Origin: Cyanobacteria bacterium GSL.Bin1
Lineage (GTDB): Bacteria > Cyanobacteriota > Cyanobacteriia > Cyanobacteriales > Rubidibacteraceae
Assembly: GCA_009909085.1 (NCBI GenBank)
Contig: JAAANX010000060.1
Coordinates: 1 to 38,179 of the forward strand
Direction of reading: 5' to 3'
DNA length: 38,179 nucleotides
This document shows, one piece after another, positions 7,403 to 30,064 of this stretch. Each line of letters starts with the position of its first letter. Position 1 is the stretch's first letter. The notes beneath the pieces are model-generated. The model saw nothing but the letters and a program-made list of their open reading frames with translations, made no database searches and was not told the DNA's origin. The translations under genes were made by a program, and so were the position numbers.

Positions 7403-7411
7403 AACACAGGC

Positions 7412-7472
7412 AGAGGGGAGGCCAGAGTGACGAGTTCATTACCATTGAACTCAACTCCCCAACTTCCCCTCT
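7412..7472. terminator. Nested hairpin between convergent cheA remnant and small basic-protein gene
   Basis: Outer arms AGAGGGGA (7412-7419) and TCCCCTCT (7465-7472) enclose an inner perfect hairpin GAGTTCA-TTACCAT-TGAACTC (7432-7452). It sits between two convergent genes, so a bidirectional terminator is likely, though T-runs are weak. Confidence 0.45.
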
Positions 7473-7511
7473 TCAAATTAGGCTTTTGTCAGCATAGGCA
7501 ACGGAGTGGGC

Positions 7512-7694
7512 TTATTCGGCTGCCCCACTATTATCGCTTTCATTATTACTGTTGCTGTTGCTGGTATTGTTGTTATTTCCACCGGAGAACCGACGACCTC
7601 TTTGGAAATTTCCGGTTGATTTTTTCCGGAACTGTCTTGCATAAGCAAGATTACGAGCTGCTTTTTCTTTTTTCTGATTCCGACGTTTAGCCAT
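7512..7694 (-). CDS. Small very basic protein with Asn/Ser-rich tail
   Basis: Sixty residues. The first half is highly basic (MAKRRNQKKEKAARNLAYAR, then QFRKK), as in ribosome- or RNA-associated proteins. The second half is rich in Gly, Asn and Ser and ends acidic. The start is the ATG at 7694-7692, 8 nt after AAGGAG; a TTG two codons upstream is less likely. It lies downstream of the rbp gene on the same strand, separated from it by a strong terminator, so it probably has its own promoter or is read by leak-through. An RNA-binding role is inferred only from charge and context. It does not resemble ribosomal protein S21, which often follows rbp in cyanobacteria. Confidence 0.7.
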   Translation of the reverse strand: MAKRRNQKKEKAARNLAYARQFRKKSTGNFQRGRRFSGGNNNNTSNSNSNNESDNSGAAE

Positions 7695-7716
7695 TCTCAA
7701 TTCTCCTTATTCAAAT

Positions 7717-7769
7717 TAAAAAACGCTTTCAGAAAGCCTGATTACATCTTATGGGCTCTCTAAAAGCGT
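7717..7769 (-). terminator. Rho-independent terminator of the rbp gene
   Basis: On the minus strand a 16-bp stem (7769-7754 with 7738-7723, two G-U wobbles) is followed by a T6 run (7722-7717). It lies 21 nt past the rbp stop and before the next small gene. Confidence 0.85.
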
Positions 7770-7789
7770 CGTTTGCTCAATTCAATACT

Positions 7790-8077
7790 TTAGAAACGTC
7801 TGTTTCTGCGACCGCCGCCAAATGAGCCTTTATTTTCGCGGGGACGAGCGGGGTTTACTTTGAGTTCACGACCCATCCATTCTGCACCATCTAGTTCAGA
7901 AATCGCATTCGATTCTTCAGTTTCCGATGACATTTCAACAAAACCAAATCCTCTCATCCGACCTGTCTCACGGTCAGTAGGGAGATGGACGCGCTTAACT
8001 GTGCCGTATTCTGCAAAAACTTCGCTTAAGTCGTCTTGAGTTACGGAGTAGTCGAGATTACCGACATAAATTGACAT
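7790..8077 (-). CDS. RRM-type RNA-binding protein (cyanobacterial Rbp family)
   Basis: A 95-residue protein made of one RNA-recognition motif and a short Gly/Arg-rich tail. RNP2 is IYVGNL (3-8) and RNP1 is RGFGFVEM (42-49), with the aromatic residues needed for RNA stacking present. Proteins of this family are often cold-induced and act in mRNA handling or mRNA localisation in cyanobacteria. The ~300-nt stretch upstream without genes may hold a long 5' leader, which is common for cold-responsive rbp genes, but no element can be assigned. A strong terminator follows the gene, so it is probably monocistronic. Confidence 0.93.
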   Translation of the reverse strand: MSIYVGNLDYSVTQDDLSEVFAEYGTVKRVHLPTDRETGRMRGFGFVEMSSETEESNAISELDGAEWMGRELKVNPARPRENKGSFGGGRRNRRF

Positions 8078-8396
8078 TGATGAAGATTCTCCTCAATCAG
8101 ATATTGTGTAGTGAGGCAAGATCTTGGAGAGAGTCTGTCAATACGAAGCTGGAAAAAACTATCAATACTGAAACCAAACGTAGTCACCGATCTTTGTTCT
8201 CAAGATTAATTTTAGCAGCCTCTTTTGAAATCGGCAACTCTATTTTGATTTTTTTAAGAAAGGTTACTTTTTCATTCTTCTTGAGAAGTGCAATCTCAGA
8301 AGTATAAAGCTAACCTTTATTTTTTGAGGACGGTTTCCGTCGGAATTGTTAATAAATTGTTACCTTAATTAGAGATGATCACTTAGTTTAGTACAG
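8078..8396. other. Divergent intergenic region between rbp and a membrane-protein gene
   Basis: About 320 bases without a convincing gene; a 78-codon plus-strand frame here looks like chance. It contains a perfect GACGG-TTT-CCGTC hairpin (8329-8341) near the plus-strand gene. It must carry both promoters and possibly a leader of rbp. Confidence 0.4.
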
Positions 8397-8960
8397 ATGA
8401 CGGTTGCCAATACTCAATCTCTAACTTTTCAAATTTCTCCACTGATTCGGATGACTCTGTTGAGTCTCTACATTGCTTTGACGCTTCCTCTGCCTTTTTT
8501 AGCTAAGATTTCTCCCGTTTCAATTCCTGTTGCTTGGTTTGTCGTTGGTTTAGCCATCGGTTGGATTTTATTATACGGTGCGTTGAGTCAGCAGGTTGTT
8601 CTCGATGACAAACAGATTGCAGTGACCTATCCCCGTTGGTTTCCCTCGATTTTGCAAAAAGGATGGTCACTCCCTTGGGCTGAAATTGAACAACTGAAAC
8701 TGCGAACGACCGGACAAGGAGGATTAGTGTATTATTTTGTTACTTCAGGGCGCGATCAAGCCTATCTTCTCCCGATGCGAGTCGCAGGATTTGCACGCTT
8801 AGTCGAGAAAGTTGAAGAAGAAACAGGCATTGATACCAGTGATGTTCGTCCTTTGGCACAACCGTGGATGTATTTCATTTTATTAGGATTTACCCTGCTT
8901 TTGCTCTTAGTCGATGCTTGGACAATTTGGACAGCCACCCACCAAGGATTAATGATCTAA
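8397..8960 (+). CDS. Conserved-type membrane protein with PH-like cytoplasmic part (hypothetical)
   Basis: 187 residues. Two membrane segments near the N-terminus (about 17-37 and 44-65), a ~90-residue soluble middle part with alternating strands (VVLDDKQIAVTYPRWFP, LPWAEIEQLKLRT) that resembles bacterial PH-like domains, and one C-terminal membrane segment (about 157-180). I do not recognise a specific family or function. The next gene, menE, starts 28 nt downstream on the same strand, so the two may be co-transcribed. Confidence 0.75.
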   Translation: MTVANTQSLTFQISPLIRMTLLSLYIALTLPLPFLAKISPVSIPVAWFVVGLAIGWILLYGALSQQVVLDDKQIAVTYPRWFPSILQKGWSLPWAEIEQLKLRTTGQGGLVYYFVTSGRDQAYLLPMRVAGFARLVEKVEEETGIDTSDVRPLAQPWMYFILLGFTLLLLLVDAWTIWTATHQGLMI

Positions 8961-15442: not shown

Positions 15443-16528
15443 TTAATCGCCAAACAAAAATCTTTGGATTAAGGCTTGTTGATGCAAAATTCGGTCTTCG
15501 AGTTGATTGGCAATTCCCGGTTCATAACCGCCACTAGCGTACCCTTTTTGCACCATTTCAGTGACTGCCATATCCTCTTTCATAAAGGTGGTGAAAGCTT
15601 GCGATAGCTGTTCTGCTGGAGGACTAACGTTGGGAATTCCATAAATTTCTAAGTGTACTTGACAGGTATTAACCCTCAAGGGATCAATCCGGATCCAAGC
15701 CAAAACTCCATCAGGCAAGGCTAAGAAATGTAGGTTAGGAAAAATACCATAAGTGAAGAAGCCATCACGGGCTTTCTGGGAGGGAATTGTGTCTAGAATG
15801 GGATGCTCACTGCGCCATTGTTCAGTTGTTGGCGTGTAGAGTAAATTGACATACTCGTTGAAATAATGTTCATAGTAACGGACAGATCCTTGGATTTGGT
15901 TTAAGGTCTCGCGATGGACAATGGGAACATGGTAATCACACAGGGTATTGTCGTGATAAACTTTCCAGTTGCAAGCGACTTTATAAGTGTGCTGAACCAG
16001 TTGTTTGGTTCCGGGTTGTCGATACCCTTGAATTGTGTTTGGAATCTCCCCTAAAAATTCTGACAATGGGGGTACTGCTTCATCGAAGCAAATGAAAATA
16101 AATCCTTCCCATTGCTCGCAACGAATTGACTTTAAGGGATAATCGGCGAAAGAGAAGTCTTCCGGAAACCGATCTTTTGCTGGAGTTCCCCTTAAATGAC
16201 CGTCTAAATCATACACCCAAGCATGATAAGGACAAATGAGCTTTTCTTTAGATTGCTTTCCGGGTTTGGGGCATAAAAGAGCAGCCCGATGGGGACAAAC
16301 ATTGTAGTAAGCTTGAACGGTTGTCGGAGTTTTTTTAATCAGTAAAATACTCGCATCAGCAATTTCAGTGACAAAGAGATTATTCTCATTAAATAACTGC
16401 TCAATATCGCCAAGATAAAGCCAGTTTTTACGGAAAATATTTCTTGTTTCTAAGGGGATTAACTCTGGATCTGTGTATAAATTTGCTGGAAAAAATGTTT
16501 GCGAATTCGATTCTAAACCGTGCTTCAT
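15443..16528 (-). CDS. Rieske non-heme iron oxygenase, last gene of the guanidine operon
   Basis: A 361-residue Rieske-type oxygenase alpha subunit resembling the choline, glycine-betaine and carnitine monooxygenase group. The [2Fe-2S] ligands are C78/H80 and C99/H102. The mononuclear iron histidines are H200 and H205 (DYHVPIVH) with a likely acid near 320. In relatives an Asp or Glu three residues before the first His links the two metal sites; here that place is C197 and the nearest acid is D198. Its ATG overlaps the stop of the ATPase gene by 4 nt (ATGA), so it is translationally coupled to the guanidine importer. No reductase gene is nearby. Oxidative N-dealkylation of a methyl- or alkylguanidine to give guanidine is a hypothesis from context. 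Confidence 0.88.
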   Translation of the reverse strand: MKHGLESNSQTFFPANLYTDPELIPLETRNIFRKNWLYLGDIEQLFNENNLFVTEIADASILLIKKTPTTVQAYYNVCPHRAALLCPKPGKQSKEKLICPYHAWVYDLDGHLRGTPAKDRFPEDFSFADYPLKSIRCEQWEGFIFICFDEAVPPLSEFLGEIPNTIQGYRQPGTKQLVQHTYKVACNWKVYHDNTLCDYHVPIVHRETLNQIQGSVRYYEHYFNEYVNLLYTPTTEQWRSEHPILDTIPSQKARDGFFTYGIFPNLHFLALPDGVLAWIRIDPLRVNTCQVHLEIYGIPNVSPPAEQLSQAFTTFMKEDMAVTEMVQKGYASGGYEPGIANQLEDRILHQQALIQRFLFGD

Positions 16529-17316
16529 CCGACCATCACTTCTTGTTCAACACTATGATTTCTCAGAAGTTGTGTGATTTTTTCGCGATAGTTTTGAAAC
16601 TCAGATAATGCTTTGACATGATAAGAGCGCGATCCATATTCATTACGCGGTAAGTTAATCTGAATTTCTTTTTGAATTGTACCGGGACGCGCCGTTAAAA
16701 CATAGATTCTTTGCCCTAGAAAAACCGCTTCTTCCACATCATGGGTAATCATTAAAATGGTGGTGCCGGTGCGTTGCCAGAGATCGAGTAAAAACTGTTG
16801 CATGGTTTCTTTGGTTTGCACATCTAATGCCCCAAACGGTTCATCCATTAGCAGAATTTTCGGTTCACAGGCTAAGGCGCGCGCGATCGCGACTCGTTGT
16901 TTCATGCCGCCAGATAGGGCTTTGGGCAGGGCATTTTTAAACTGAGTTAAGCCCACCACATTGAGATAGTAAGCAGTCCGTTCTTGACGTTCCGAACGGG
17001 GAATGCCTTGCAGCTTCAGTCCAAACTCAACATTTTTGGCGACATTGAGCCAAGGATAAAGGGTATAGCGTTGAAATATCATACCGCGATCGCGCCCCGG
17101 ACCAATAATCGGGACGTGATCCACCGTAATTTCTCCGGAAGTGGGATAATCTAGCCCGGCAATTAACCTTAATAGCGTTGATTTGCCAGAACCGGAAGCG
17201 CCAACGGCACAAACAAATTCTCCCGTTTCAACGTGCAAATTAATATCTTCAAGCGCTAGAAAATTACCTTTTTTGGCGGGAAACTCTTTATAGAGATGTG
17301 TTACTTCTAAGTGCAT
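16525..17316 (-). CDS. ABC transporter ATPase (NrtD/SsuB/TauB family), probable guanidine importer
   Basis: 263 residues. Walker A GASGSGKST (39-47), signature LSGGMKQR (134-141), Walker B ILLMDEP (154-160) and the switch His (ITHD) are intact. It would energise the permease encoded just upstream at the cytoplasmic face. By family it belongs with nitrate, sulfonate and taurine importers. Its position inside a guanidine-riboswitch operon argues for guanidine or a derivative as substrate. Its stop overlaps the start of the Rieske gene. Confidence 0.9.
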   Translation of the reverse strand: MHLEVTHLYKEFPAKKGNFLALEDINLHVETGEFVCAVGASGSGKSTLLRLIAGLDYPTSGEITVDHVPIIGPGRDRGMIFQRYTLYPWLNVAKNVEFGLKLQGIPRSERQERTAYYLNVVGLTQFKNALPKALSGGMKQRVAIARALACEPKILLMDEPFGALDVQTKETMQQFLLDLWQRTGTTILMITHDVEEAVFLGQRIYVLTARPGTIQKEIQINLPRNEYGSRSYHVKALSEFQNYREKITQLLRNHSVEQEVMVG

Positions 17317-17349
17317 TATTCAGCCTCAACTTATCATAATAAAAAATAA

Positions 17350-18177
17350 TTAGAGTGCCCATTTACAGGACACTCGCAACAACCCCCGAAATGATAAATC
17401 AATCAGAAAGCCAATTAACCCCAGAACAATTAAACAGGCAAAAATCTCATCCGTATTCAGAAATTTTTGGGCTAATAAGATGCGTTTTCCTAGCCCTTGT
17501 TCAGCGGCAACTAACTCCGCAACAATCACTAAATTCCAAGAGGTGGCAATATTAATCCGAAACGCATCAATAATGTTCGGAATGACATAGGGCGTAATCA
17601 CTTGTAACAAAACTTGCCAGCGTAACCCCCCTAAGGTATAGGTCGTTTCAATTAACTCCTTGGGGACAAACTTCACAGCATCCATAATCATCAGTACATT
17701 AAAGAAAATAGTGCCGATAAAAATGAGTAAGATTTTAGGTTCTTCCCCAATACCGAGATACAGAATCAGTAAAGGGATAAATGCGGGCGCTGGCATATAG
17801 CGTAAAATGCCAATAATCGGTTCAAATAATGACCGAATGCTGGCAAACGCCCCCATCCCAATGCCAATGGGAATGGCAATGACACCGGCTAAGACAAAAC
17901 CGCCAACCACTCGCAAGAAACTGGCAATCGTATCTTTAACCAAATAACCTTTTTCCCACAAGCGACCGAATGCTTCTCCGACTTGCACAGGGCTAGGCAG
18001 AAAAACATCTTCCACTCCGCCAAACGTGGCGAGTAACCACCAGAAAGACAGCGGAATCACCACGGAAACCACCATCAAGCCCCACTGTAACGGTTGGGGA
18101 ATATCTTCTGCGATGCGCCAAAATGTGGTTGGCGGTAGTCCTTGGGCTTGATTCTTTTTTCCTAGTGAATTAGACAT
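17350..18177 (-). CDS. ABC transporter permease (SsuC/TauC family), probable guanidine importer
   Basis: 275 residues with about six membrane helices and a cytoplasmic EAA-like loop (ELIETTYTLGGLRWQVLLQV) that contacts the ATPase. Family BPD_transp_1 of the nitrate/taurine type. It starts 8 nt past the binding-protein gene and precedes the ATPase gene, giving a complete importer of lipoprotein, permease homodimer and ATPase. Confidence 0.9.
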   Translation of the reverse strand: MSNSLGKKNQAQGLPPTTFWRIAEDIPQPLQWGLMVVSVVIPLSFWWLLATFGGVEDVFLPSPVQVGEAFGRLWEKGYLVKDTIASFLRVVGGFVLAGVIAIPIGIGMGAFASIRSLFEPIIGILRYMPAPAFIPLLILYLGIGEEPKILLIFIGTIFFNVLMIMDAVKFVPKELIETTYTLGGLRWQVLLQVITPYVIPNIIDAFRINIATSWNLVIVAELVAAEQGLGKRILLAQKFLNTDEIFACLIVLGLIGFLIDLSFRGLLRVSCKWAL

Positions 18178-18185
18178 GATGATCC

Positions 18186-19202
18186 TTACTGTTGTTCAGC
18201 ATAGGTTTTGACAAAGCTGTCATCAAAAAGAGTACTTAAATCCGGTTTTTCGGGAATAAAATCAACACTGACCATAAAGTCTGCCATTTCTTGGGCAGCA
18301 TAGGGCATATGGGTCATATTATCCCCATCACTAAAGGCTTCTAAGTTGTCTTCTAAAGTGAACATTTGGGTTCCTTCTTTGAACAGTTGTAAGTCTTCGG
18401 TGGTGACATCAGCGCGTTGCGCCATAATTTCATCGGACCGTTCGGGATTGTCTGCCATAAATGCCAGCACATCAAACCAAGTATTTACTAGGGCTTGCAC
18501 TTGATCCGGGCGTTCATCAATCAGCTTTTGACTGGTGACGAGTAAGTCAGGAATGGCACCGGGAAACGCAGCCGAACTAATTAACTCATGACTCCCTTCT
18601 CGCTTTAGCGCCGTCAACCAAAACGGGGGAAAGGCACCGACCGCATCCACTTTTCCCGCAGCAAACGCTGCCGCCGCAGCACCCGTTTCTAAGTCAACAA
18701 TATCAACATCACTACGGGACATCCCCTCTTCTTCTAACGCCAAGGTGAGGAGAAAATCATCAACGACACCGGCTTCAACCGCAACCTCTTTTCCTTCTAA
18801 CTCAGGAATCGATTGAATTTCTTCGGCAGCAATAATTTTGTCATTCCCAGCGGAATTATCATTCACGAGGACGACCACTTCACCGTTGACTGCATCGCCA
18901 ACAAAAGAAACCGTATCGTTTAAGGTTTGACAGTTGGCATCGAGTTGTCCCGCTGCTAGGGCTTCCATGGAAGCCAGGTAGCCATCAAACCATTGCAAGC
19001 GAACATTTGCTCCATTTTTTTCAAATAACCCTTCTTCTTGCGCGATCGCCCAGGGCCACCAACCCGCCCAATTACTATAACCCAGCACAACCGGTTCCCT
19101 CCCCTCTGTACTCGGCGAATTATTGCCTGTATTGCAACTAACAACTAAAACTAAACTTAAACAAAATAAACCGAACTGTATTAGTAATTTTGGTAACTTC
19201 AT
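18186..19202 (-). CDS. Substrate-binding lipoprotein (NMT1/SsuA-like), probable guanidine importer
   Basis: 338 residues. The signal peptide ends in a lipobox (LVVSC, lipidated Cys23), so the protein would be anchored on the periplasmic face of the inner membrane. The mature part follows the NMT1/THI5-like fold, with an aromatic-rich start (SNWAGWWPWAIAQEEGLF) and a GGTL-less binding cleft typical of the taurine/nitrate class. The aromatic pair could stack against a planar guanidinium cation, which is inference. A GGAAG ribosome site precedes the ATG. It lies 12 nt after hypB in the same operon. Confidence 0.88.
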   Translation of the reverse strand: MKLPKLLIQFGLFCLSLVLVVSCNTGNNSPSTEGREPVVLGYSNWAGWWPWAIAQEEGLFEKNGANVRLQWFDGYLASMEALAAGQLDANCQTLNDTVSFVGDAVNGEVVVLVNDNSAGNDKIIAAEEIQSIPELEGKEVAVEAGVVDDFLLTLALEEEGMSRSDVDIVDLETGAAAAAFAAGKVDAVGAFPPFWLTALKREGSHELISSAAFPGAIPDLLVTSQKLIDERPDQVQALVNTWFDVLAFMADNPERSDEIMAQRADVTTEDLQLFKEGTQMFTLEDNLEAFSDGDNMTHMPYAAQEMADFMVSVDFIPEKPDLSTLFDDSFVKTYAEQQ

Positions 19203-19214
19203 TCCGCTTCCTTT

Positions 19215-19904
19215 TTAATGACTAACAATAAGTTGTTCTGCCACTTGTTTTTGTACCCAATCCAACCAAAGATTCAGTCCTTCGCCAGTCTTTGCTGAAA
19301 CGGGAATTATCGTGACATTGGGGTTCATTTGTCGGACATTGGCTTCAATTCGTTTCAGGTCAATTTCTAAATGAGGGGCTAAGTCCATTTTGGTAACTAA
19401 AAGACAGTCTGCTTCTTGAAACATCACTGGATATTTCAGCGGTTTATCTTCTCCTTCTGTCACACTAAGTAAGGCGACTTTCCTGTGTTCTCCCACTTCA
19501 AATTCCGCGGGACAAACCAAATTGCCCACATTTTCCACAAAAATTAGATCAAATTCTGGGGGATGATAATTTTCTTGGAGTTGATGCAAGCCACCGGCCA
19601 CCATTTTTGCATCGAGATGACAAGACCGTCCGGTATTAATAGCAATAATCGGAACCCCGTATTGGCGGAGTCGTTCGGCATCTAATTCGGTTGTCATATC
19701 CCCTTCAATCACCGCAAGCTTAAGTTGGGAGGACAAAATAGAAAGGGTTTTTTCTAACAAAACGGTTTTTCCAGCGCCGGGACTACTCATAACATTGAGA
19801 CAAGTGATACCCCACGCATCAAAATGTTCTCGGTTATGGTCAGCTTCAGTTTGGTTGGCGTGAAGGAGATTGACTCCTAAGGCGGCGTCAAAGGTTTGGT
19901 GCAT
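19215..19904 (-). CDS. hypB: HypB-type nickel GTPase chaperone
   Basis: 229 residues. GTP P-loop SPGAGKT (41-47), GDMTTELD (68-75), the metal-site pair C95-H96 (GRSCHLD) and the TKMDL G4 motif. In hydrogenase systems HypB loads Ni into HypA and the enzyme. Here it lacks the N-terminal CxxCGC motif and the His-rich nickel-storage stretch. Its place between hypA and the importer, next to a Ni-dependent guanidine hydrolase and with no hydrogenase genes, argues that its client is GdmH. Confidence 0.93.
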
Positions 19905-19925
19905 AGCTTTCTCACTGGCAAGACA

Positions 19926-20297
19926 TTATTGAATAGCAACAGATTCTTCTGTGGTGTACTCGATATGATCAATTTTCAGTTCTCTACCGGAACGAATGTC
20001 TTCCATTGGCGAATGACAACTCGGACAAGCATATTCTTGACCCAATTTCGGAAAATATTCTTGTTGACAAGGATGGCAATAGGCAATCAATGGACTCTGT
20101 TTAATAACAAGTTCCACTCCGGCTAAAAAAGTATTTTGAGTTTGTACCTCAAAGGCAAATTGCAGACTGACAGGTTCGACACAAGTAAACTCCCCAACCA
20201 GGAGATGAACTTTCTGAATCTTTGGGGGAACGGGTTGGTTTTGCCACCACTCATGAACCGTTTGCATGAGTGCTTTTGTCATATCTGTTTCGTGCAT
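19926..20297 (-). CDS. hypA: HypA-type nickel chaperone
   Basis: 123 residues. It begins MHE, the N-terminal Ni-binding motif, and holds a structural zinc site C74/C77 and C91/C94 (YCHPC, ACPSC). HypA hands nickel from HypB to the target enzyme. A clear AGGAG site precedes the ATG. It sits 17 nt after gdmH, so it is read as part of the same transcript. Length is slightly above the usual ~115 because of the C-terminal tail. Confidence 0.94.
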   Translation of the reverse strand: MHETDMTKALMQTVHEWWQNQPVPPKIQKVHLLVGEFTCVEPVSLQFAFEVQTQNTFLAGVELVIKQSPLIAYCHPCQQEYFPKLGQEYACPSCHSPMEDIRSGRELKIDHIEYTTEESVAIQ

Positions 20298-20314
20298 TCA
20301 CAAGTCTCCTTTAT

Positions 20315-21475
20315 TTACTGCCAATAATCGGCAGTGGTTTGGGCTTCTTCATGGATATAACTGGGCTTTGCTTGACGCGGCAGTTGTTCCGAAAGTACAA
20401 GATGGGCCATCGTATCGCAGATGACTCGGGTTGCCATTAAAGCGGTCATATCGCTGACATCATAAGGGGGTGAAACTTCGACGACTTCTAGTCCACAAAC
20501 GGGGGCTTGCTGCACAATTTTTCCTAATAAATAAAGGGCTTCTCGGGGTAAGAGTCCACCCGGTTCGGGCCAACCGGTTCCCGGAACAAAACCGGCATCA
20601 ATGCAATCAATATCAAAGCTGATATAAACACAATCAGTGCCATCGAGGGCGCGTTCCAGGGCAAACTCTACCGCGGCATCTAAACCCATTTCTGTAATAT
20701 CAGTAACGGTGAGAATATTGGTTTCTCGTTCTCGACAAACCTTGACTCCTTGACGCGGCACTTGCCAACCGCCAATTCCCAGTTGAACCAGGTTTTTAGC
20801 AGGAGCATTTTTAATATTTGTCGCGTGGAACCAAGGGCAAGTATGCATCCGTTCATCCAGGTCACTTTCTTGAGTATCCACATGGCGATCAAAGTGAATA
20901 ATTCCGACTTTTTGATCTCCTAAATGACGACAAACGCCACGCACCGTAGGAAAACCAATAGAATGATCGCCTCCGAGAATGATTGGTAAGGCACCGGATT
21001 GGAAAATGTGGGCAATCCCTTTAGAAATCTGATCAAAGGACTTTTCGTTATTCCCGGGAATGGTGAAGATATCGCCAACATCACAGAGGGTAATTTGTTC
21101 TCTTAAATCAACCCCTAGTTCAAAGTTGTAGGGGGTATAAAGAGCCGAAATTTTGCGGATGCCTTGGGGGCCAAACCGCGTCCCCGGCCGGTAAGTGGTA
21201 CCAGAATCATGGGGAACGCCAACAATGGCAACATCATAATTCCCGACTTGTTTGACATCTTCCACATAGGGGGCTTTGAGGAAGGTATTAATGCCAGCAT
21301 AGTGAGGGAGTTCACCGCGCGAAAAGGTAGAAATGCTGCGATCGCGAATACTGTCTGCTGCTTCTAATCCATAATCTAAGCCTTGCGACACTTCTTGCTG
21401 CCATCCAGTTAACGGTAACTGACTTTCTTTATCTAACGCCTGATTGGCTTCGCTAGATTGATTTTGCTCACTCAT
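20315..21475 (-). CDS. gdmH: Nickel-dependent guanidine hydrolase (ureohydrolase family)
   Basis: A 386-residue ureohydrolase. The binuclear metal ligands are all present: H171 (GGDHS), D196, H198 and D200 (HFDRHVD), D288 and D290 (SFDIDCID). The motif has Arg197 where agmatinases carry Ala, and an extended N-terminus (FSRGELPHYAGINTFLKAP at 51-69) is typical of the Synechocystis Sll1077-type guanidine hydrolase rather than agmatinase. It would split guanidine into urea and ammonia in the cytosol. Support comes from the guanidine-I riboswitch just upstream, the Ni chaperone genes hypA and hypB just downstream and the importer that follows. The start has an AGGAG site 13 nt upstream. Automated labels often call such genes speB/agmatinase. 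Confidence 0.93.
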   Translation of the reverse strand: MSEQNQSSEANQALDKESQLPLTGWQQEVSQGLDYGLEAADSIRDRSISTFSRGELPHYAGINTFLKAPYVEDVKQVGNYDVAIVGVPHDSGTTYRPGTRFGPQGIRKISALYTPYNFELGVDLREQITLCDVGDIFTIPGNNEKSFDQISKGIAHIFQSGALPIILGGDHSIGFPTVRGVCRHLGDQKVGIIHFDRHVDTQESDLDERMHTCPWFHATNIKNAPAKNLVQLGIGGWQVPRQGVKVCRERETNILTVTDITEMGLDAAVEFALERALDGTDCVYISFDIDCIDAGFVPGTGWPEPGGLLPREALYLLGKIVQQAPVCGLEVVEVSPPYDVSDMTALMATRVICDTMAHLVLSEQLPRQAKPSYIHEEAQTTADYWQ

Positions 21476-21502
21476 TGATCAATTTTCTCTCCTAAAAAAT
21501 AC

Positions 21503-21549
21503 AAAAAAAAGGAGACCTCTTAACAGTAACCACTGTTGTTGAGACCTCC
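21503..21549 (-). terminator. Riboswitch expression-platform terminator
   Basis: On the minus strand GGAGGUCUC (21549-21541) pairs with GAGGUCUCC (21519-21511) over 9 bp with two G-U pairs. An inner AACAGU-GGUU-ACUGUU hairpin fills the loop, and a U8 run follows (21510-21503). The 5' arm overlaps the conserved CCGGGAGG end of the aptamer, so ligand-bound aptamer and terminator exclude each other: an ON switch at transcription level. Confidence 0.9.
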
Positions 21550-21650
21550 CGGGCTTTTGTCCCGCCGTGTCGCTATCTCTTTCTTGAGAGTGCGTGCTTC
21601 TCTTGGACCAGTCACTGCGGTAGGAGCGCAATCGGAACCCTAGAAGCAAT
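21540..21650 (-). promoter_or_regulatory. Guanidine-I riboswitch (ykkC class) upstream of gdmH
   Basis: The minus strand carries the class signatures in order: CUAGGGUUCCG (21643-21633), UGGUCCAAGAGAAGC (~21609-21595), ACACGGCGGGACAAAAGCCCGGGAG (~21571-21547). These nearly universal blocks identify the guanidine aptamer. It lies 65 nt before the gdmH ATG. Binding of guanidine should release the downstream terminator and switch on hydrolase, chaperones and importer. Confidence 0.95.
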
Positions 21651-21680
21651 GTTCGATTTGGATGAATTTTAATAGGTTGT

Positions 21681-21722
21681 ATTGTGCAGAACTATGGGAA
21701 TAACTACAGTAAAATTGACTAC
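21681..21722 (-). promoter_or_regulatory. NtcA-like promoter of the guanidine operon
   Basis: On the minus strand GTA-GTCAATTT-TAC (21722-21709) fits the NtcA consensus GTAN8TAC. A -10-like CACAAT (21686-21681) follows after exactly 22 nt, the spacing of NtcA-activated class II promoters. It lies between the end of the MFS gene and the riboswitch. A single GTAN8TAC can arise by chance; spacing and context make it likely. Confidence 0.6.
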
Positions 21723-24784: not shown

Positions 24785-25267
24785 TTAAGTTCCGTACACT
24801 CGAATCAGGTCGTCGAGAGTTGTCCCTAGTGGAGCATAAATCCGTTGCTTTTTGAGAATGGCAAAATCCTGTTCAATTTTGTTAAAGTCAGGGGAGTAGG
24901 GGGGTAGAAAAAGAACTTCATGTCCAGCGCTCTGGGCAATCTCTTTAATTTCTTCCTTTCTATGAAAAGGAGCATTATCGAGAATTAGAAGAGATTGAGG
25001 ATTGAGAAGTGGGAGTAAATGATGCTCCAGCCAGTGATTGAACCAAGTTGAATGGGTTGTTCCCGCAAACAAAACTGGTGCCAGTAATTCCTTTCCTCTC
25101 TTAGCTGCAATTAAACTAGTGCGGGGGCGAGTTTTTCCACTACGCTCACCATGAATTTTTTTCCCTTTCTTCGACCAAGCATGGGGTCGAAACGTGCTGG
25201 CTTCAAAACCAGATTCATCAATATAGATCACATTCTCTGACCCTTGCTCAATGATAAATTTTCGCAA
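24785..25267 (-). CDS. IS630 transposase, DDE catalytic part
   Basis: About 160 residues visible from an internal ATG; the frame really extends upstream to the A8 run near 25321. The catalytic acids are in IYIDESGF (first D), LILDNAPFH (second D) and NKIEQD (E), the DDE triad of the IS630/Tc1 group. It joins in frame to the first ORF if one A is removed from the A8 run (reading CKKTLLYEQRKPGERIEYLQ). Confidence 0.9.
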   Translation of the reverse strand: MRKFIIEQGSENVIYIDESGFEASTFRPHAWSKKGKKIHGERSGKTRPRTSLIAAKRGKELLAPVLFAGTTHSTWFNHWLEHHLLPLLNPQSLLILDNAPFHRKEEIKEIAQSAGHEVLFLPPYSPDFNKIEQDFAILKKQRIYAPLGTTLDDLIRVYGT

Positions 25268-25289
25268 AGTTTGTAGGTACTCAATGCGC

Positions 25290-25622
25290 TCACCGGGTTT
25301 CCTCTGTTCGTAGAGCAGAGTTTTTTTTACAGGTCTGTTTCATTTTTTGCAGAGCGTACCAAATGGCGTTGATCTCTACCCCGAAACGCTCTGCTCTTTC
25401 TCGAAGCAAAGCATCAGGATTTTCTTGGACATCTGTTCTCAAGGCTTCCCAATTTAGTTTGCGCGATCGCCGCTCAACTTTCTTCGGAGCCAAATCATCT
25501 CTTTGACACCAATCATAAACACACCAGCGACTCACTTCATATCGTCGTGAGGCTTCGGATTTGCTACCCCCTTTCTTGACAAAGTTAACCACTCGCTGAC
25601 GTAAATCTAGGCTATAGGTCAT
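25290..25622 (-). CDS. IS630 transposase, helix-turn-helix part
   Basis: 110 residues starting MTYSLDLRQRVVNFVKKGGS, the usual IS630 N-terminus, with an HTH (SKSEASRRYEVSRWCVYDWC) for end binding. Past the A8 run (25328-25321) its own frame ends after ~13 residues. The catalytic part lies in another frame, so expression of a whole transposase would need slippage at the A-run, or the copy is inactive. Confidence 0.88.
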   Translation of the reverse strand: MTYSLDLRQRVVNFVKKGGSKSEASRRYEVSRWCVYDWCQRDDLAPKKVERRSRKLNWEALRTDVQENPDALLRERAERFGVEINAIWYALQKMKQTCKKNSALRTEETR

Positions 25623-25690: not shown

Positions 25691-25912
25691 ATTCTGGCGG
25701 ACAAAATAAGCGGATTGGGGCGATACTCATACCCAGACCCGGATTCACTTTTGTATGATTTTCCTTTGCTCTCATTATCAACGCGATTATCATCTTTATT
25801 GTCATCAGATTTGCGCCATTGATCTCCCCGTCTTAGAGTTAGAAATTAAGAACTCGCCCGCGCAAAAAATGAGGCTCAACCCGAAATAGTGACGGTAATT
25901 GTACGCAAAAAG
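25691..25912. other. Non-coding stretch between IS630 and urate promoter
   Basis: About 220 bases with no supported gene on either strand. It may include remains of the sequence the IS entered, but no reading frame resembles a known protein. Confidence 0.35.
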
Positions 25913-25959
25913 GTAGTCTGTAATACAGTAAAATTGAATTTTTATGTATACAGTATACA
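25913..25959 (+). promoter_or_regulatory. NtcA-like box plus 15-bp palindrome, promoter of the urate operon
   Basis: GTAGTCTGTAATAC (25913-25926) fits GTAN8TAC. After 18 nt comes the perfect odd palindrome TGTATACAGTATACA (25945-25959). A -10 element TACAGT (25949-25954, TAN3T) lies 22 nt from the NtcA box and inside the palindrome, so a protein on the palindrome would block RNA polymerase. The ATG is 40 nt downstream. The same architecture recurs at 32820-32866. Confidence 0.75.
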
Positions 25960-25999
25960 GCTAGTGTCAAAATTAGTGAGTTCCTTCCTCAAAAACATT

Positions 26000-26500
26000 A
26001 TGTTAGTCACCCAACAACCTGTCTTACGGCGATTTTGGTATCCAGTCGTGCCGTTGGATCAGATACAGGCGGAACCAAAACGGTTTCAGCTTTTGGGAGA
26101 ACCTTTGCTTTTGTGGATTGATTGGTTTTTCCCCTTTAGCGACAAACTTCGCATCAACTATCCCAACAGGTTGGTTCATATTATTGTCAATACTACAACG
26201 CTGATTAATGATCAAACCTCGCAAATTCTGCAACGTTGTTTGCGTAACGATACAGAAGCGGAAACCATAGCCGCCGAAGCAAAAGCCTTTGACCGCGCCG
26301 ACACTCTAGAAGATAAAGCCATTTTAGAAACCACTGTTTTTGATGTTCCTTTAGAACTGAAATGGGAACAACACATGGCAACGGATCAGCCTGGGATTTT
26401 GATGCGGCATCCTTTCTCTCCTTTATTCAAAGCTCATGGGGAAACAGAAGCAACTCATAAAAAAGCAATCGATTATCAAAAAACAAAAATGCTGGTTTAA
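26000..26500 (+). pseudogene. Rieske oxygenase remnant lacking the Rieske domain and catalytic core
   Basis: 166 residues. The first ~36 (LRRFWYPVVPLDQIQAEPKR, then FQLLGEPLLLW) are the N-terminus of a cyanobacterial aromatic-ring-hydroxylase-like Rieske protein. From about residue 45 on (KLRINYPNRLVHIIVN, RNDTEAE, TTVFDVPLELKWEQHM, GILMRH) the sequence is its C-terminus. The middle (~180-200 residues with the CxH/CxxH cluster ligands and iron site) is missing, yet the frame is kept. The in-frame loss leaves a product without any metal ligand. It keeps the operon's promoter and lies 17 nt before the permease gene. It is unrelated in detail to the intact Rieske protein of the guanidine operon. 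Confidence 0.75.
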
Positions 26501-26517
26501 TTTTTAATTATCTTGCC

Positions 26518-27918
26518 ATGTCATATAACGAAGAAATTGCACTAGAAACAGAAACTACAGAAACGGCTCAAACCCAACCCTTATCCGGTGATTTAATTTA
26601 TGGCTTGGAAGATCGTCCACCCATTGGAAAAGCCATTTTTGCTGCTATTCAGCACGTCTTAGCCTGTGTCGTTGGCATTGTCACCCCCTCTTTAATTATT
26701 TCTGATGCCTTGGGATTAAGCACAGCCAATGCCAGTTATTTAATTAGTATGTCGCTGTTTGTCTCAGGAATTGCGACCTTTATTCAAGTGAAACGTTTTG
26801 GTCCGGTGGGATCAGGGTTATTAAGCATTCAAGGCACGAGTTTTACCTTTATTGGACCCATTTTGGGGGCAGGAGGCGCAGTTATTGCTGCGGATAATTC
26901 GCCAACAGATGCGTTAGCCCTGATTTTTGGCTTGTGTCTGGTGGGATCATTGGTTCAGATTGTTCTCAGTCGCTTTCTAAAGTTTACCCAAAAAATCGTC
27001 ACTCCCCTGGTTACAGGAACAGTGGTGACACTGATTGGTTTAACTCTAGTTCGGGTTGCCATTACTGATATGGGGGGTGGTTTTGCTGCCAAATCTGCAG
27101 GGACATTTGGTAGTATGCAGAATCTGGGCGTTGCCAGTTTAGTCTTGTTAACAGTTCTCATCCTCAATAGCTTGAGTAGTCCGTTATTGAGAATGGGTTC
27201 GATTGTGATTGGCATTGTCGTCGGTTATTTGGTTGCTACTCCCTTGGGAATGGTCAGTTTTCAAAGTTTAGGTAATCTTCCTCCGTTTACCGTACCCCTT
27301 CCTTTTCGCTATGGCATCAATTTCAATTTTGCGGCATTTGTGCCGTTTATTTTTCTCTATATCATCACCACCATTGAGTCGATTGGGGATTTAACAGCAA
27401 CCTCAGTCATTTCTGGGGAACCCATTCGCGGCGATCGTTATTTCCAACGGTTACAAGGCGGAGTTCTTGGGGATGGACTGAATTCCATGCTTGCAGCTTG
27501 CTTTAATACCTTTCCCAATACAACCTTTAGCCAAAATAATGGGGTCATTCAACTAACTGGGATTGGCAGTCGATATGTGGGTTATTTTATTTCTGGCATT
27601 TTTGTTGTGTTGGGGCTGGTACCAATTTTTGCGGGGGTTATCCAAGCCGTGCCTAAACCAGTCTTAGGCGGTGCAACTATTTTAATGTTTGGTACGGTTG
27701 CCACTGCTGGCATTAAATTACTCTCTTGTGTCAATCTCAGTCGTCGCAATTCCTTAATTATTGCAATTTCTCTGGGATTAGGTCTAGGGGTAACGTTTGC
27801 CCCGGAGATTTTGGAGAAGTTACCGACACTACTTAACAATATTTTTTCCTCTGGTATTGCTACCGGTGGTATCACTGCTTTAATTTTGAACCTTTTAATT
27901 CCAGGAGAACGTGAATAA
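26518..27918 (+). CDS. NCS2-family urate/xanthine permease
   Basis: 466 residues with about 14 hydrophobic segments. The nucleobase-ascorbate transporter signature NTTFSQNNGVIQLTGIGSR is present near 340, in the form typical of urate/xanthine carriers. It would import urate or xanthine with protons through the inner membrane. Its stop is 2 nt from the start of the urate hydroxylase gene, so both are in one operon. Confidence 0.92.
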   Translation: MSYNEEIALETETTETAQTQPLSGDLIYGLEDRPPIGKAIFAAIQHVLACVVGIVTPSLIISDALGLSTANASYLISMSLFVSGIATFIQVKRFGPVGSGLLSIQGTSFTFIGPILGAGGAVIAADNSPTDALALIFGLCLVGSLVQIVLSRFLKFTQKIVTPLVTGTVVTLIGLTLVRVAITDMGGGFAAKSAGTFGSMQNLGVASLVLLTVLILNSLSSPLLRMGSIVIGIVVGYLVATPLGMVSFQSLGNLPPFTVPLPFRYGINFNFAAFVPFIFLYIITTIESIGDLTATSVISGEPIRGDRYFQRLQGGVLGDGLNSMLAACFNTFPNTTFSQNNGVIQLTGIGSRYVGYFISGIFVVLGLVPIFAGVIQAVPKPVLGGATILMFGTVATAGIKLLSCVNLSRRNSLIIAISLGLGLGVTFAPEILEKLPTLLNNIFSSGIATGGITALILNLLIPGERE

Positions 27919-27920
27919 CC

Positions 27921-29084
27921 ATGTATAACTTGAAAGTAACCATTATTGGCGCAGGAATTGGCGGACTCACCACAGGAATTGCACTCAAAAATATTGGCTA
28001 CGATGTGGACATTTACGACCGAACCCGTGAGTTACGCCCTGCCGGGGCAGGGATTTCTTTATGGTCCAATGGCATTAAAGTCCTCAATCGCTTGGGATTA
28101 GGCGAGAAGGTGGCAAACATTGGCGGGCAGATGAATCGGATGGAATATCGCAGCCATAAAGATGAACGACTCTCGGCAGTGGATTTACGTCCTTTAGTGG
28201 AGCGTGTCGGAGAACGTCCTTATCCGGTGGCGCGTACTGATGTCCAACAAATGTTACTGGAGGCGTTTGGGTCAGAGAAGGTGCATTTAGGCTGGAAGTG
28301 TGTGGCGGTTGAGCAAGATGAAACCATTGCCACTGCTATTTTCGAGAGCGGCGATCGCGTCACCAGTGATTTAATTATTGGCGCTGATGGTATCCACTCC
28401 ACAGTCCGCGAATATGTCACCGGTCAACCCATCACTCCCCGCTATGCGGATTATGTCAACTGGAATGGCTTAGTTCCTGCGAGTGACGATCTCTGCGAAG
28501 CGGATAACTGGGTGATTTATGTGGGAGAAGGGAAACGGGCGTCGATGATGCCAGTGGGCGATAATCGCTTTTACTTCTTCTTTGGTTGTCCGATGGCAAA
28601 AGGAACGACAGTGGAACCGAAAGACCGCCAAGCAGAGTTAAAAGAAATTTTTGCGGGTTGGCCGAAAGCTGTACAAAATTTAATTGAACGCCTGAACCCT
28701 CTCGAAACCAATCGTCTAGAAATTTCGGATTTGGATCCCCTAGAAACCCTCGCCAAAGGTCGCATTGCCCTCTTAGGAGATGCGGGACACGCCACCACCC
28801 CAACCTTAGGACAAGGGGGTTGTCAGGCGATTGAGGATGCGGAAATGCTCAGTCGTTTCTTGGTCAGTACGAATATCAGCGTTGCCGATGCCCTGAAGCG
28901 GTATGAAGCAGCGCGAAAAGACCGGGTGAGTCAACTGGTATTGAAAGCCCGCCAACGAACCGCCACTATCTACGGCAAGGATGAAAGTACCACTGCCGCT
29001 TGGTATCAACAACTCTCCCAAGAACCGGAAAGCAACGTGATTGATTCCCTCGCCAAAGTCATTGTGGGGGGTCCGTTGCAATGA
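27921..29084 (+). CDS. hpxO: FAD-dependent urate hydroxylase (HpxO type)
   Basis: 387 residues. Rossmann GAGIGG at 10-15, the second FAD motif GADG (~153) and GDAGHATTPTLGQGG (~285) define a flavin monooxygenase. Close motif-level likeness to Klebsiella HpxO along the length, including YVNWNGLV, YVGEGKRASMMPVG, NRFYFFF and the C-terminal KARQRTATIYGKD. It oxidises urate with NADH and O2 to 5-hydroxyisourate. It ends in an ATGA overlap with the EamA gene. The next two enzymes of the pathway follow, which supports the call strongly. It replaces the cofactor-free uricase (PucL/UaZ) used elsewhere. Confidence 0.93.
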   Translation: MYNLKVTIIGAGIGGLTTGIALKNIGYDVDIYDRTRELRPAGAGISLWSNGIKVLNRLGLGEKVANIGGQMNRMEYRSHKDERLSAVDLRPLVERVGERPYPVARTDVQQMLLEAFGSEKVHLGWKCVAVEQDETIATAIFESGDRVTSDLIIGADGIHSTVREYVTGQPITPRYADYVNWNGLVPASDDLCEADNWVIYVGEGKRASMMPVGDNRFYFFFGCPMAKGTTVEPKDRQAELKEIFAGWPKAVQNLIERLNPLETNRLEISDLDPLETLAKGRIALLGDAGHATTPTLGQGGCQAIEDAEMLSRFLVSTNISVADALKRYEAARKDRVSQLVLKARQRTATIYGKDESTTAAWYQQLSQEPESNVIDSLAKVIVGGPLQ

Positions 29085-30064
29085 ATCCTGATACCTATAC
29101 CGATGCTGCCCTCTCGGAAACGACCCCAACTGAAAATCCCCTGACTGTAAAATTGCTGGGGATGCTAGCCCTCGTTTCTGCTTTAATTGCCATTGGCTTT
29201 GCCTCGATTTGGTTAGTGGTAGCAGAAAAAGAACTGACTCCCCTGACCACAATTTTTTACCGGTTATCTGGGGCAGCGGTTACACTGGCACTTTGGCAAG
29301 GCGTACAACGCTTATGGCAAAAAAGAGAGCAACCGCAATACGATCGCGCAACGATTTTCTTGCTAGTCTTTGCTGCCGCTAGTTTTTCCACGTCTCTCGT
29401 CTTGCTGGGATGGTCACTCACTCAAACCAGCGTCGCCAACGGAACATTGCTTTATAACAATATGCCAGTGTTTACGGCGCTATTTGCTTGGGTGTTTCTC
29501 GGGCAACGGTTTTCCCTCAAGTTTCTGTTGGGATTGGTGATTGCCTTAGCTGGAGTGATCGCCATTGGACTCAGCGATTTTCAACTGGCCGATGTGGATG
29601 TAAAAGGCGATTTAGCGGCGATTCTTGCCTCGATGCTAGCGGCGACGAGTTTACTCTGTTTTGAAAAACTCCGGCAAACGCTTACTTCTGGGATGATTAT
29701 GCTTTGGGTGAGCGTGGTTGGTGGCATTCTCTTATTACCGTTGGTGATCTGGCAAGGAGGGCAATTCTTTCCCACTTCTTTACAGACGTGGTTGGCAGTG
29801 TTGAGTTTAGCGGTAATTTCTCAAGGCATTGGTCAGGGCTTACTCACCTATTGTGTGGGCTTATTTTCCGCCGGATTAATTGCGGTTTGTATGCTCTCCA
29901 TTCCAGTGATTGCTGCCCTCGCCAGTGCGATCTTATTTGGCGAACACCTTCCTTTAGGCAACTGGATTGCCTTTGCTGTGGTGTTATTGGGCATTTACTT
30001 TGCGCTCACTGCCAAACAAGAAGTAGCTGCTAGTTCTCCCTTACAGAACTCTGCTGGCAATTGA
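29081..30064 (+). CDS. EamA/DMT-family transporter in the urate operon
   Basis: 327 residues, ten membrane helices in two EamA repeats. The start overlaps the hpxO stop (ATGA). Drug/metabolite transporters are mostly exporters of small metabolites. In this operon the substrate could be a pathway intermediate or end product such as allantoin, or an alternative purine; the sequence does not decide. Confidence 0.88.
   Translation: MNPDTYTDAALSETTPTENPLTVKLLGMLALVSALIAIGFASIWLVVAEKELTPLTTIFYRLSGAAVTLALWQGVQRLWQKREQPQYDRATIFLLVFAAASFSTSLVLLGWSLTQTSVANGTLLYNNMPVFTALFAWVFLGQRFSLKFLLGLVIALAGVIAIGLSDFQLADVDVKGDLAAILASMLAATSLLCFEKLRQTLTSGMIMLWVSVVGGILLLPLVIWQGGQFFPTSLQTWLAVLSLAVISQGIGQGLLTYCVGLFSAGLIAVCMLSIPVIAALASAILFGEHLPLGNWIAFAVVLLGIYFALTAKQEVAASSPLQNSAGN

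Follow-up and report, generated by a model that had tools for sequence, protein, structure and literature searches.

Why does an operon for the use of guanidine end in the gene of a Rieske oxygenase? The question is posed by contig JAAANX010000060.1 of Cyanobacteria bacterium GSL.Bin1, a stretch of 38,179 nucleotides that was analysed whole and is here called the window. A guanidine-I riboswitch on its minus strand heads a run of seven open reading frames (ORFs), in the order gdmH (guanidine hydrolase), hypA, hypB, the substrate-binding protein (SBP), permease and ATPase of an ABC transporter, and the Rieske gene, the gaps between them being 17, 21, 12, 8, 33 and -4 bases. A first-pass annotation, made from the sequence alone, had named all of these parts, and each was recovered, although the span that it gave (15443-21722) runs about 70 bases past the aptamer. 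It had also proposed that guanidine is made inside the cell by oxidative dealkylation, and this inference appears to be the best-supported reading. We give an even chance to the reading that the Rieske protein is an N-dealkylase that makes guanidine for GdmH from an imported N-alkylguanidine, most probably methylguanidine.

The Rieske family, its occurrence and its active site

The Rieske protein and GdmH served as queries against a sample of 386 cyanobacterial genomes. Some Rieske match at an E-value of 1e-10 was found in 43 of them. From the 48 matches listed, 30 were fetched, of which 19 belong to the family of the window protein and 11 do not; the other 18, all weaker at E 2.5e-24 or beyond, lie outside this reading of motifs. 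The family motif, from 14 aligned proteins, is HDNTL[C/D]DYH. Among the 19 genomes with a family member, six have it at 60% identity or more, and 13 have a protein of the picocyanobacteria-like group f25, near 33%. GdmH is present in 60 genomes (57 full-length, 3 partial), and all 19 genomes with a family Rieske gene have a full GdmH; the hypergeometric probability of this is 2.8e-17 with kinship ignored, a figure that overstates independence because the 19 genomes represent seven genera. In 15 of the 19, gdmH lies within 10 kb of the Rieske gene, and by coordinates a guanidine-I riboswitch stands beside gdmH in all 15. The first-pass annotation had held that the link would be accidental if it were rare elsewhere, and in this sample it is not rare. 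In the remaining four the genes are on separate contigs (G062, G172), 164 kb apart (G324), or on separate short contigs that each end in overlapping SBP matches, a case scored as not linked (G342). That GdmH is kept in G062, G172 and G324 is what would be expected if guanidine is the product of the Rieske enzyme.

A profile with the clade A pattern (defined below) was also searched against 84,980 species. Among the best 80 matches, a list from which genomes near the window may be missing, there are 12 further loci at 45-55% identity together with Kastovskya adunca (62%), all cyanobacterial, and the next relatives listed are at most 33% identical and belong to other phyla. These 13 named loci do not amount to a sample, and L094 among them is sample genome G062 again. 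The association with GdmH holds here at the level of the genome, with a GdmH of 84-90% identity somewhere in 12 of the 13 (one a fragment at a contig end), but not at the level of the locus, since among these matches gdmH stands alongside the Rieske gene only in L083 and L093. An ABC ATPase gene adjoins the Rieske gene in 18 of the 19 sample genomes and in 11 of the 13 named loci. In the sample this is commoner than gdmH within 10 kb, which suggests that the substrate of the Rieske enzyme is imported.

A tree built by a quick method from 113 Rieske proteins groups the 28 family rows in a single clade (SH-aLRT 100). The f25 rows make up a subclade (clade B), with the rows of the window's own genus in the remainder; the window protein belongs to clade A and is 30-33% identical to clade B. 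Several branches are long, including that of clade B, and the groups are about 32% identical, so that long branches may have been drawn together. The tree leaves out L093, which is under 300 amino acids, and counts for clade B cover 11 of its 13 members (without G257/L011 and G342/L009); the 85 comparison sequences come mostly from the clade A profile search. Two independent recruitments of a Rieske protein, one in the own-genus type and one in f25, were considered and rejected because both groups fall in this one clade and share 19 columns that are rare in other Rieske proteins by the cut-offs of the script. A phage-borne family was likewise set aside, as one viral scan gave distant relatives only (at best 26% over a long alignment, or 37% over 46 residues).

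The window protein (361 amino acids, 15443-16528, minus strand) contains the domains PF00355 (Rieske) and PF00848 (Ring_hydroxyl_A), and its start overlaps the stop of the ATPase gene in the ATGA that the first-pass annotation had pointed out. The cluster ligands C78, H80, C99 and H102 and the facial triad H200, H205 and D319 are conserved in every aligned family member that covers them, and the protein therefore has the CxH...CxxH pattern and the 2-His-1-Asp triad by which a Rieske non-haem iron oxygenase is recognised. It lacks the bridging carboxylate usual three residues before the first iron histidine, the sequence here being C197-D198. At position 197, all 18 clade A proteins (the window protein included) have Cys and all 11 of clade B have Asp, whereas the 85 comparison sequences have 83 Glu and 2 Asp. 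Position 198 is Asp in all 29 family members, against 2 of the 85 others, and position 195 is Thr in all 29, where 80 of the 85 have Tyr or Phe.

An AlphaFold2 model from 19 aligned sequences has a mean pLDDT of 89.3. By both sequence and fold the best solved relative is CntA (E 2.6e-27, 25% identity, 335 aligned residues, Z 34.5), with stachydrine demethylase among the next best (Z about 33). Both are group V enzymes (PMC7948474, PMC10952381). The window protein retains the iron ligands and the residues Tyr225 and Phe258 of CntA. CntA differs at Tyr203 (Thr195 here), Glu205 (Cys197, or Asp in clade B), Cys206 (Asp198), and the polar pocket residues Asn270 and Tyr295, which become hydrophobic and are both Leu in the window protein. 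Tyr203 of CntA is described as stacking on the quaternary ammonium, and Tyr/Phe (group Va) or Asn (group Vb) at this position as marking group V (PMC7948474). The Thr at this position in 29 of 29 thus places the family outside the quaternary-ammonium class of CntA, GbcA and Stc2, and the analogy to choline-like amines drawn by the first-pass annotation is weak in its detail. A choline-, carnitine- or betaine-type monooxygenase was rejected on these signature residues, and on the GbcA profile NF058607, against which the window protein scores 138.6 bits with a cut-off of 670. According to PMC10952381, C206 of CntA is about 4.4 Å from the bound substrate, whose ammonium faces it. The pattern of residues suggests that the pocket may hold a small cation through a carboxylate and not through an aromatic face, with Asp198 either binding the cation or replacing the bridge.

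Variant loci and the ligase of relatives

Six Nodosilinea-type loci (L085, L086, L087, L088, L090 and L092) lack gdmH, and in them a guanidine-I riboswitch leads into genes for a ligase, the SBP, permease and ATPase, and the Rieske protein. In these genomes gdmH is elsewhere, and in both of the gdmH loci examined (L232, L234) it has its own riboswitch and hypAB. Matches to the nitrogen-stress RNA NsiR1 lie about 1 kb from that riboswitch, at L232:11822-11878 and L234:10629-10685. The single gdmH-to-Rieske operon of Leptolyngbya sp. DLM2.Bin15 (L083) has the ligase between hypA and hypB, and no riboswitch scored above the cut-off there. Within the sample, a close ligase (67-83%) occurs in six of the 386 genomes; all six have it beside gdmH, and five also have the Rieske gene. 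No close ligase was found in the window genome at E 1e-90.

The ligase is 44% identical to 9qur, a glutamate-methylamine ligase (E 1.4e-128), 43% to RhGmaS and 36% to a glutamine synthetase, and reaches 591 bits against the TIGR03105 cut-off of 469.6. It lacks the ammonium-binding Asp50' of glutamine synthetase; Trp300, Asp177 and Glu186 are present, as are Y147, E179 and K30. Overall it is thus like the gamma-glutamylmethylamide synthetases (RhGmaS 7cql, 9qur; PMC7948447), but it differs from them at positions 48, 175 and 188. The amine pocket reads Thr48, Ser175 and Asp188 in 15 of 15 sequences, whereas 33 of 33 homologues at 40-45% identity and both solved enzymes retain Ala/Cys48, Gln175 and Asn188 (two more distant rows were set aside). 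With Q175S and N188D in all 15, the ligase does not have the methylamine pocket of RhGmaS. Thirteen of these altered ligases lie inside a gdmH or riboswitch operon; for L231_8685 and for L239_43, at a contig start, none was seen. Homologues with this pocket are found at L086:5456-6817, in L083, L085, L087, L088, L090 and L092, and in genomes G170, G175, G270, G304, G314 and G342. Three ligase-family genes lie within about 11 kb in Nodosilinea nodulosa (G392, L231:6061-17411), two of them adjacent (42% and 78% to P0001) and the other more distant at 31%.

Kastovskya adunca (G062/L065:7363-11906) has, in this order, genes for the SBP, the permease, a hydrolase of the isochorismatase family, the ATPase and the Rieske protein, and its genome contains a separate complete gdmH operon. 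In G324 the SBP, permease, ATPase and Rieske genes stand alone, and no riboswitch was detected either there or at gdmH; G172, L082 and L084 have the Rieske gene with neither gdmH nor a transporter adjacent. A locus in G027 (L242, about 6379-8878) carries a second guanidine-I riboswitch followed by an ATPase, an SBP and a permease match (68% over 165 residues). Its genes resemble the Rieske-linked transporter of Kastovskya, and there is no Rieske gene among the L242 matches. The second riboswitch loci L244, L246, L248 and L250, each with an ORF of 1201-1221 amino acids, look like the guanidine carboxylase pathway by size only.

A proposed route from methylguanidine to ammonia

Parts of this picture are already known. 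The first-pass annotation called the Rieske gene unexpected, yet its position after the gdmH (speB2)-hypAB-ABC cluster in most of the Synechococcus and Cyanobium genomes having that cluster was noted in 2023, with no function assigned (PMC10119275). That marine cluster has the same gene set and the same riboswitch class as the window operon. In the main text of that paper the Rieske product, CK_00002251, is a putative Rieske Fe-S protein with iron suggested as a cofactor only, and the terms oxygenase and glutamine synthetase are absent. CK_00002251 is likely to belong to clade B, gene order being among the grounds. Synechocystis PCC 6803 likewise has gdmH, hypA, hypB, SBP, permease and ATPase under a guanidine riboswitch (sll1077-sll1082; PMC8390497), but according to PMC10119275 its cluster is without the Rieske gene. 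Nor would demethylation as such extend the known pathway as far as was claimed: Vreelandella boliviensis is reported to encode the oxygenase MgdH, which frees guanidine from methylguanidine, in an operon that also has an ABC importer and a guanidine riboswitch (PMC12508155). What differs there is the machinery, MgdH being a 2-oxoglutarate enzyme of another family that works with the lyase MgdL, alongside the guanidine carboxylase pathway. In the window protein only the Rieske and Ring_hydroxyl_A domains were found, and not those of a 2-oxoglutarate/Fe(II) dioxygenase; it is proposed to work like MgdH, not to be MgdH.

We suggest that this operon lets the cell gain nitrogen by taking up and degrading guanidine-type compounds. 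Both guanidine and a small N-alkylguanidine, most probably methylguanidine, would enter through the ABC transporter, and the Rieske oxygenase would then hydroxylate the N-alkyl carbon; there is no reductase gene in the operon, which makes photosynthetic ferredoxin the likely electron donor. The hydroxylated product would split into guanidine and an aldehyde (formaldehyde in the case of methylguanidine), so that the Rieske enzyme could run an MgdH-type reaction with a different activation of oxygen. GdmH, loaded with nickel via HypA and HypB, would split the guanidine into urea and ammonia, and urease, the alpha gene of which is present elsewhere in the same genome, would complete the route. 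The guanidine so released would keep the riboswitch on.

In support of this proposal, a comammox guanidinase gave no urea from methylguanidine in the assays cited, and the authors state that the cyanobacterial enzyme agrees (PMC11410670); a cell that imports methylguanidine would therefore have to demethylate it first. The proposal is also favoured by the full GdmH of all 19 Rieske-bearing sample genomes, by the linkage to gdmH within 10 kb in 15 of them, by the single clade, by the Asp of all 29 members at the place of C206 in CntA, and by the precedent of MgdH. In addition, the nearest solved relatives, CntA and stachydrine demethylase, both oxidise quaternary-ammonium substrates. Several observations weigh against it. 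The window operon has no lyase-like extra gene, and N-(hydroxymethyl)guanidine is reported to decay slowly without MgdL (PMC12508155). The guanidine-I riboswitch of V. boliviensis discriminates against methylguanidine, according to the same source; a review counts methylguanidine among the likely inducers (PMC12186494). The bridging Glu is Cys in the window protein, and E205 mutants of CntA are inactive (PMC7948474), while the family has Cys or Asp there. The pocket is not wholly remade, since it retains counterparts of Tyr225 and Phe258 (Y219 in 29 of 29, F257 in 27 of 28), and the fold match to an N-dealkylase is barely above that to ring hydroxylases (Z 34.5 for CntA, 33.3 for TPADO). In terms of occurrence, 38 of the 57 genomes with full GdmH have no family Rieske gene; G326, one of five genomes of the same genus, lacks it in an otherwise complete operon; G386 has the Rieske gene and no close GdmH (a 38% match only); gdmH is alongside in two of the 13 named loci; and the Rieske gene of Kastovskya sits with a hydrolase and a different ABC transporter, with no riboswitch detected.

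Some of these points would also fit an enzyme that acts on another imported nitrogen compound, for example a urea, an amide, an amine or a sulfonate, guanidine being the signal only. The SBP is of the SsuA/taurine-like family; the Kastovskya hydrolase has biuret amidohydrolase as its best NCBIfam match, albeit far under the cut-off (91 against 370 bits); the transporter and Rieske genes of G324 stand apart from gdmH with a riboswitch detected at neither; and the ATPase is the more constant neighbour (18/19 and 11/13, against 15/19 and 2/13 for gdmH). However, the presence of GdmH in 19 of 19 genomes, and of the riboswitch before all 15 linked operons, makes this fairly unlikely in our view. 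The ligase raises a related idea, in which the Rieske enzyme oxidises a glutamate adduct of a guanidino compound or amine made by the neighbouring ligase, and genomes without the ligase use the free substrate or another ligase. Joining to glutamate first is the course taken in the aniline pathway, which offers a model for such a pair. The riboswitch-headed ligase-SBP-permease-ATPase-Rieske order of the six Nodosilinea-type loci speaks for this idea, as do the six of six close ligases of the sample adjoining gdmH, the Rieske gene in five of those six genomes, and the pocket unlike that of methylamine ligases in all 15. It is nonetheless unlikely, given that neither the window genome (at E 1e-90) nor 14 of the 19 Rieske-bearing sample genomes have a close ligase, and that G170, which has the ligase, lacks a family Rieske protein.

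The loss of the bridging Glu could also mean that the Rieske protein is not an active oxygenase at all, and is an electron-transfer or sensing relic. The inactivity of the CntA E205 mutants (PMC7948474) and the contrast at position 197 (Cys in 18 of 18 clade A proteins, Glu in 83 of 85 others) would fit this, but every aligned member that spans them has intact cluster ligands and an intact triad, Asp occupies position 197 in clade B, and the Asp198 of all 29 could serve as the bridge instead; a relic seems very unlikely. Least credible is a gene caught in the operon by chance and unrelated to guanidine. Its absence from 38 of 57 GdmH genomes and from the same-genus G326, and the presence of gdmH alongside it in 2 of 13 named loci only, would fit this. 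On the other hand, the same clade is linked in two lineages (the own genus and f25), the gene is coupled by ATGA in the window, GdmH is present in 19 of 19, and the Rieske operon has a guanidine riboswitch in front of it even when gdmH lies at another locus.

If the dealkylase reading is taken together with the ligase loci, a wider and more tentative proposal can be made, which we think doubtful as a whole: that cyanobacteria have evolved a methylguanidine-type demethylase of their own, built on the Rieske fold and unrelated to MgdH, in which the bridging carboxylate is gone or has moved one residue along and the guanidinium is held by an invariant Asp, and which in some lineages stands beside a glutamate ligase re-shaped from a methylamine ligase, in an extended guanidine regulon that frees nitrogen from substituted guanidines. 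What is new is the single Rieske clade tied to GdmH, its altered bridge and pocket residues, and the riboswitch-headed ligase-transporter-Rieske loci; the gdmH-Rieske linkage (PMC10119275) and methylguanidine demethylation by the unrelated MgdH in a guanidine-riboswitch operon (PMC12508155) are already known. In the searches made of the open-licence literature no report was found of the function of this Rieske protein, of the altered bridge, or of a ligase in guanidine regulons. Guanidine riboswitches are widespread, and the natural origin of free guanidine has been called an open question (PMC12186494). That a conserved oxygenase accompanies GdmH in two lineages of cyanobacteria suggests that substituted guanidines are among the natural sources of guanidine, and the family provides a natural test of electron transfer without the usual bridging glutamate.

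Other features of the operon and the window

The riboswitch aptamer (21544-21654, minus strand) was matched by an Rfam covariance search with Guanidine-I (RF00442) at 21654-21544, with 86.0 bits against a cut-off of 63, E 3.4e-14, and all 107 model positions covered (1-107). It is the sole Guanidine-I match in the 4.82 Mb genome. RNAfold of the leader predicts a terminator-like hairpin (21503-21549, minus strand) with a 9-bp outer stem and an inner 6-bp stem followed by eight T, the 5' arm of which overlaps the conserved 3' end of the aptamer. Such an overlap is the usual arrangement in a transcriptional ON switch, and the hairpin is likely to be the expression platform; it is absent from the list given by a separate scan for terminator patterns. 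Another terminator-like hairpin, between permease and ATPase (17375-17353), was discounted, the scan having given 5 sites against 7.1 in shuffled sequence.

The gdmH product (386 amino acids, 20315-21475, minus strand, like all the genes below) matches the Arginase family (E 3.6e-78) and retains the motifs GGDHS (168), FDRHVD (195) and SFDIDCID (286). These presumably hold the six metal ligands that the first-pass annotation had counted, which we place by the familiar motifs of the arginase family. Full-length homologues, 82-97% identical, are found in 56 other cyanobacterial genomes, most of them with the riboswitch. The protein is thus assigned to the family on its metal motifs and on its closeness in sequence to the cyanobacterial group that is linked to the riboswitch and found in hypAB operons; the name is taken from the Sll1077 operon (PMC8390497), the identification here coming from those motifs and homologues and not from alignment to Sll1077. 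The hypA-type nickel chaperone (123 amino acids, 19926-20297) scores 115.4 bits with TIGR00100 (cut-off 88.1), begins with MHE as had been noted, and has two CxxC. The hypB-type nickel GTPase (229 amino acids, 19215-19904) scores 311.3 bits with TIGR00073 (cut-off 121.2); the strict P-loop pattern is not matched, the corresponding sequence reading SSPGAGKT. The transporter comprises the substrate-binding lipoprotein (338 amino acids, 18186-19202; TIGR01728 SsuA_fam, 277.4 bits against 163.5, and NMT1_2), the permease (275 amino acids, 17350-18177; BPD_transp_1) and the ATPase (263 amino acids, 16525-17316; ABC_tran).

Elsewhere in the window, two adjacent minus-strand ORFs at 24785-25622 look like a transposase of the IS630 type. 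The region 25889-30064 contains a xanthine/uracil-type permease (26518-27918), then an FAD-binding protein (27921-29084) and an EamA transporter, and is possibly a purine-nitrogen locus.

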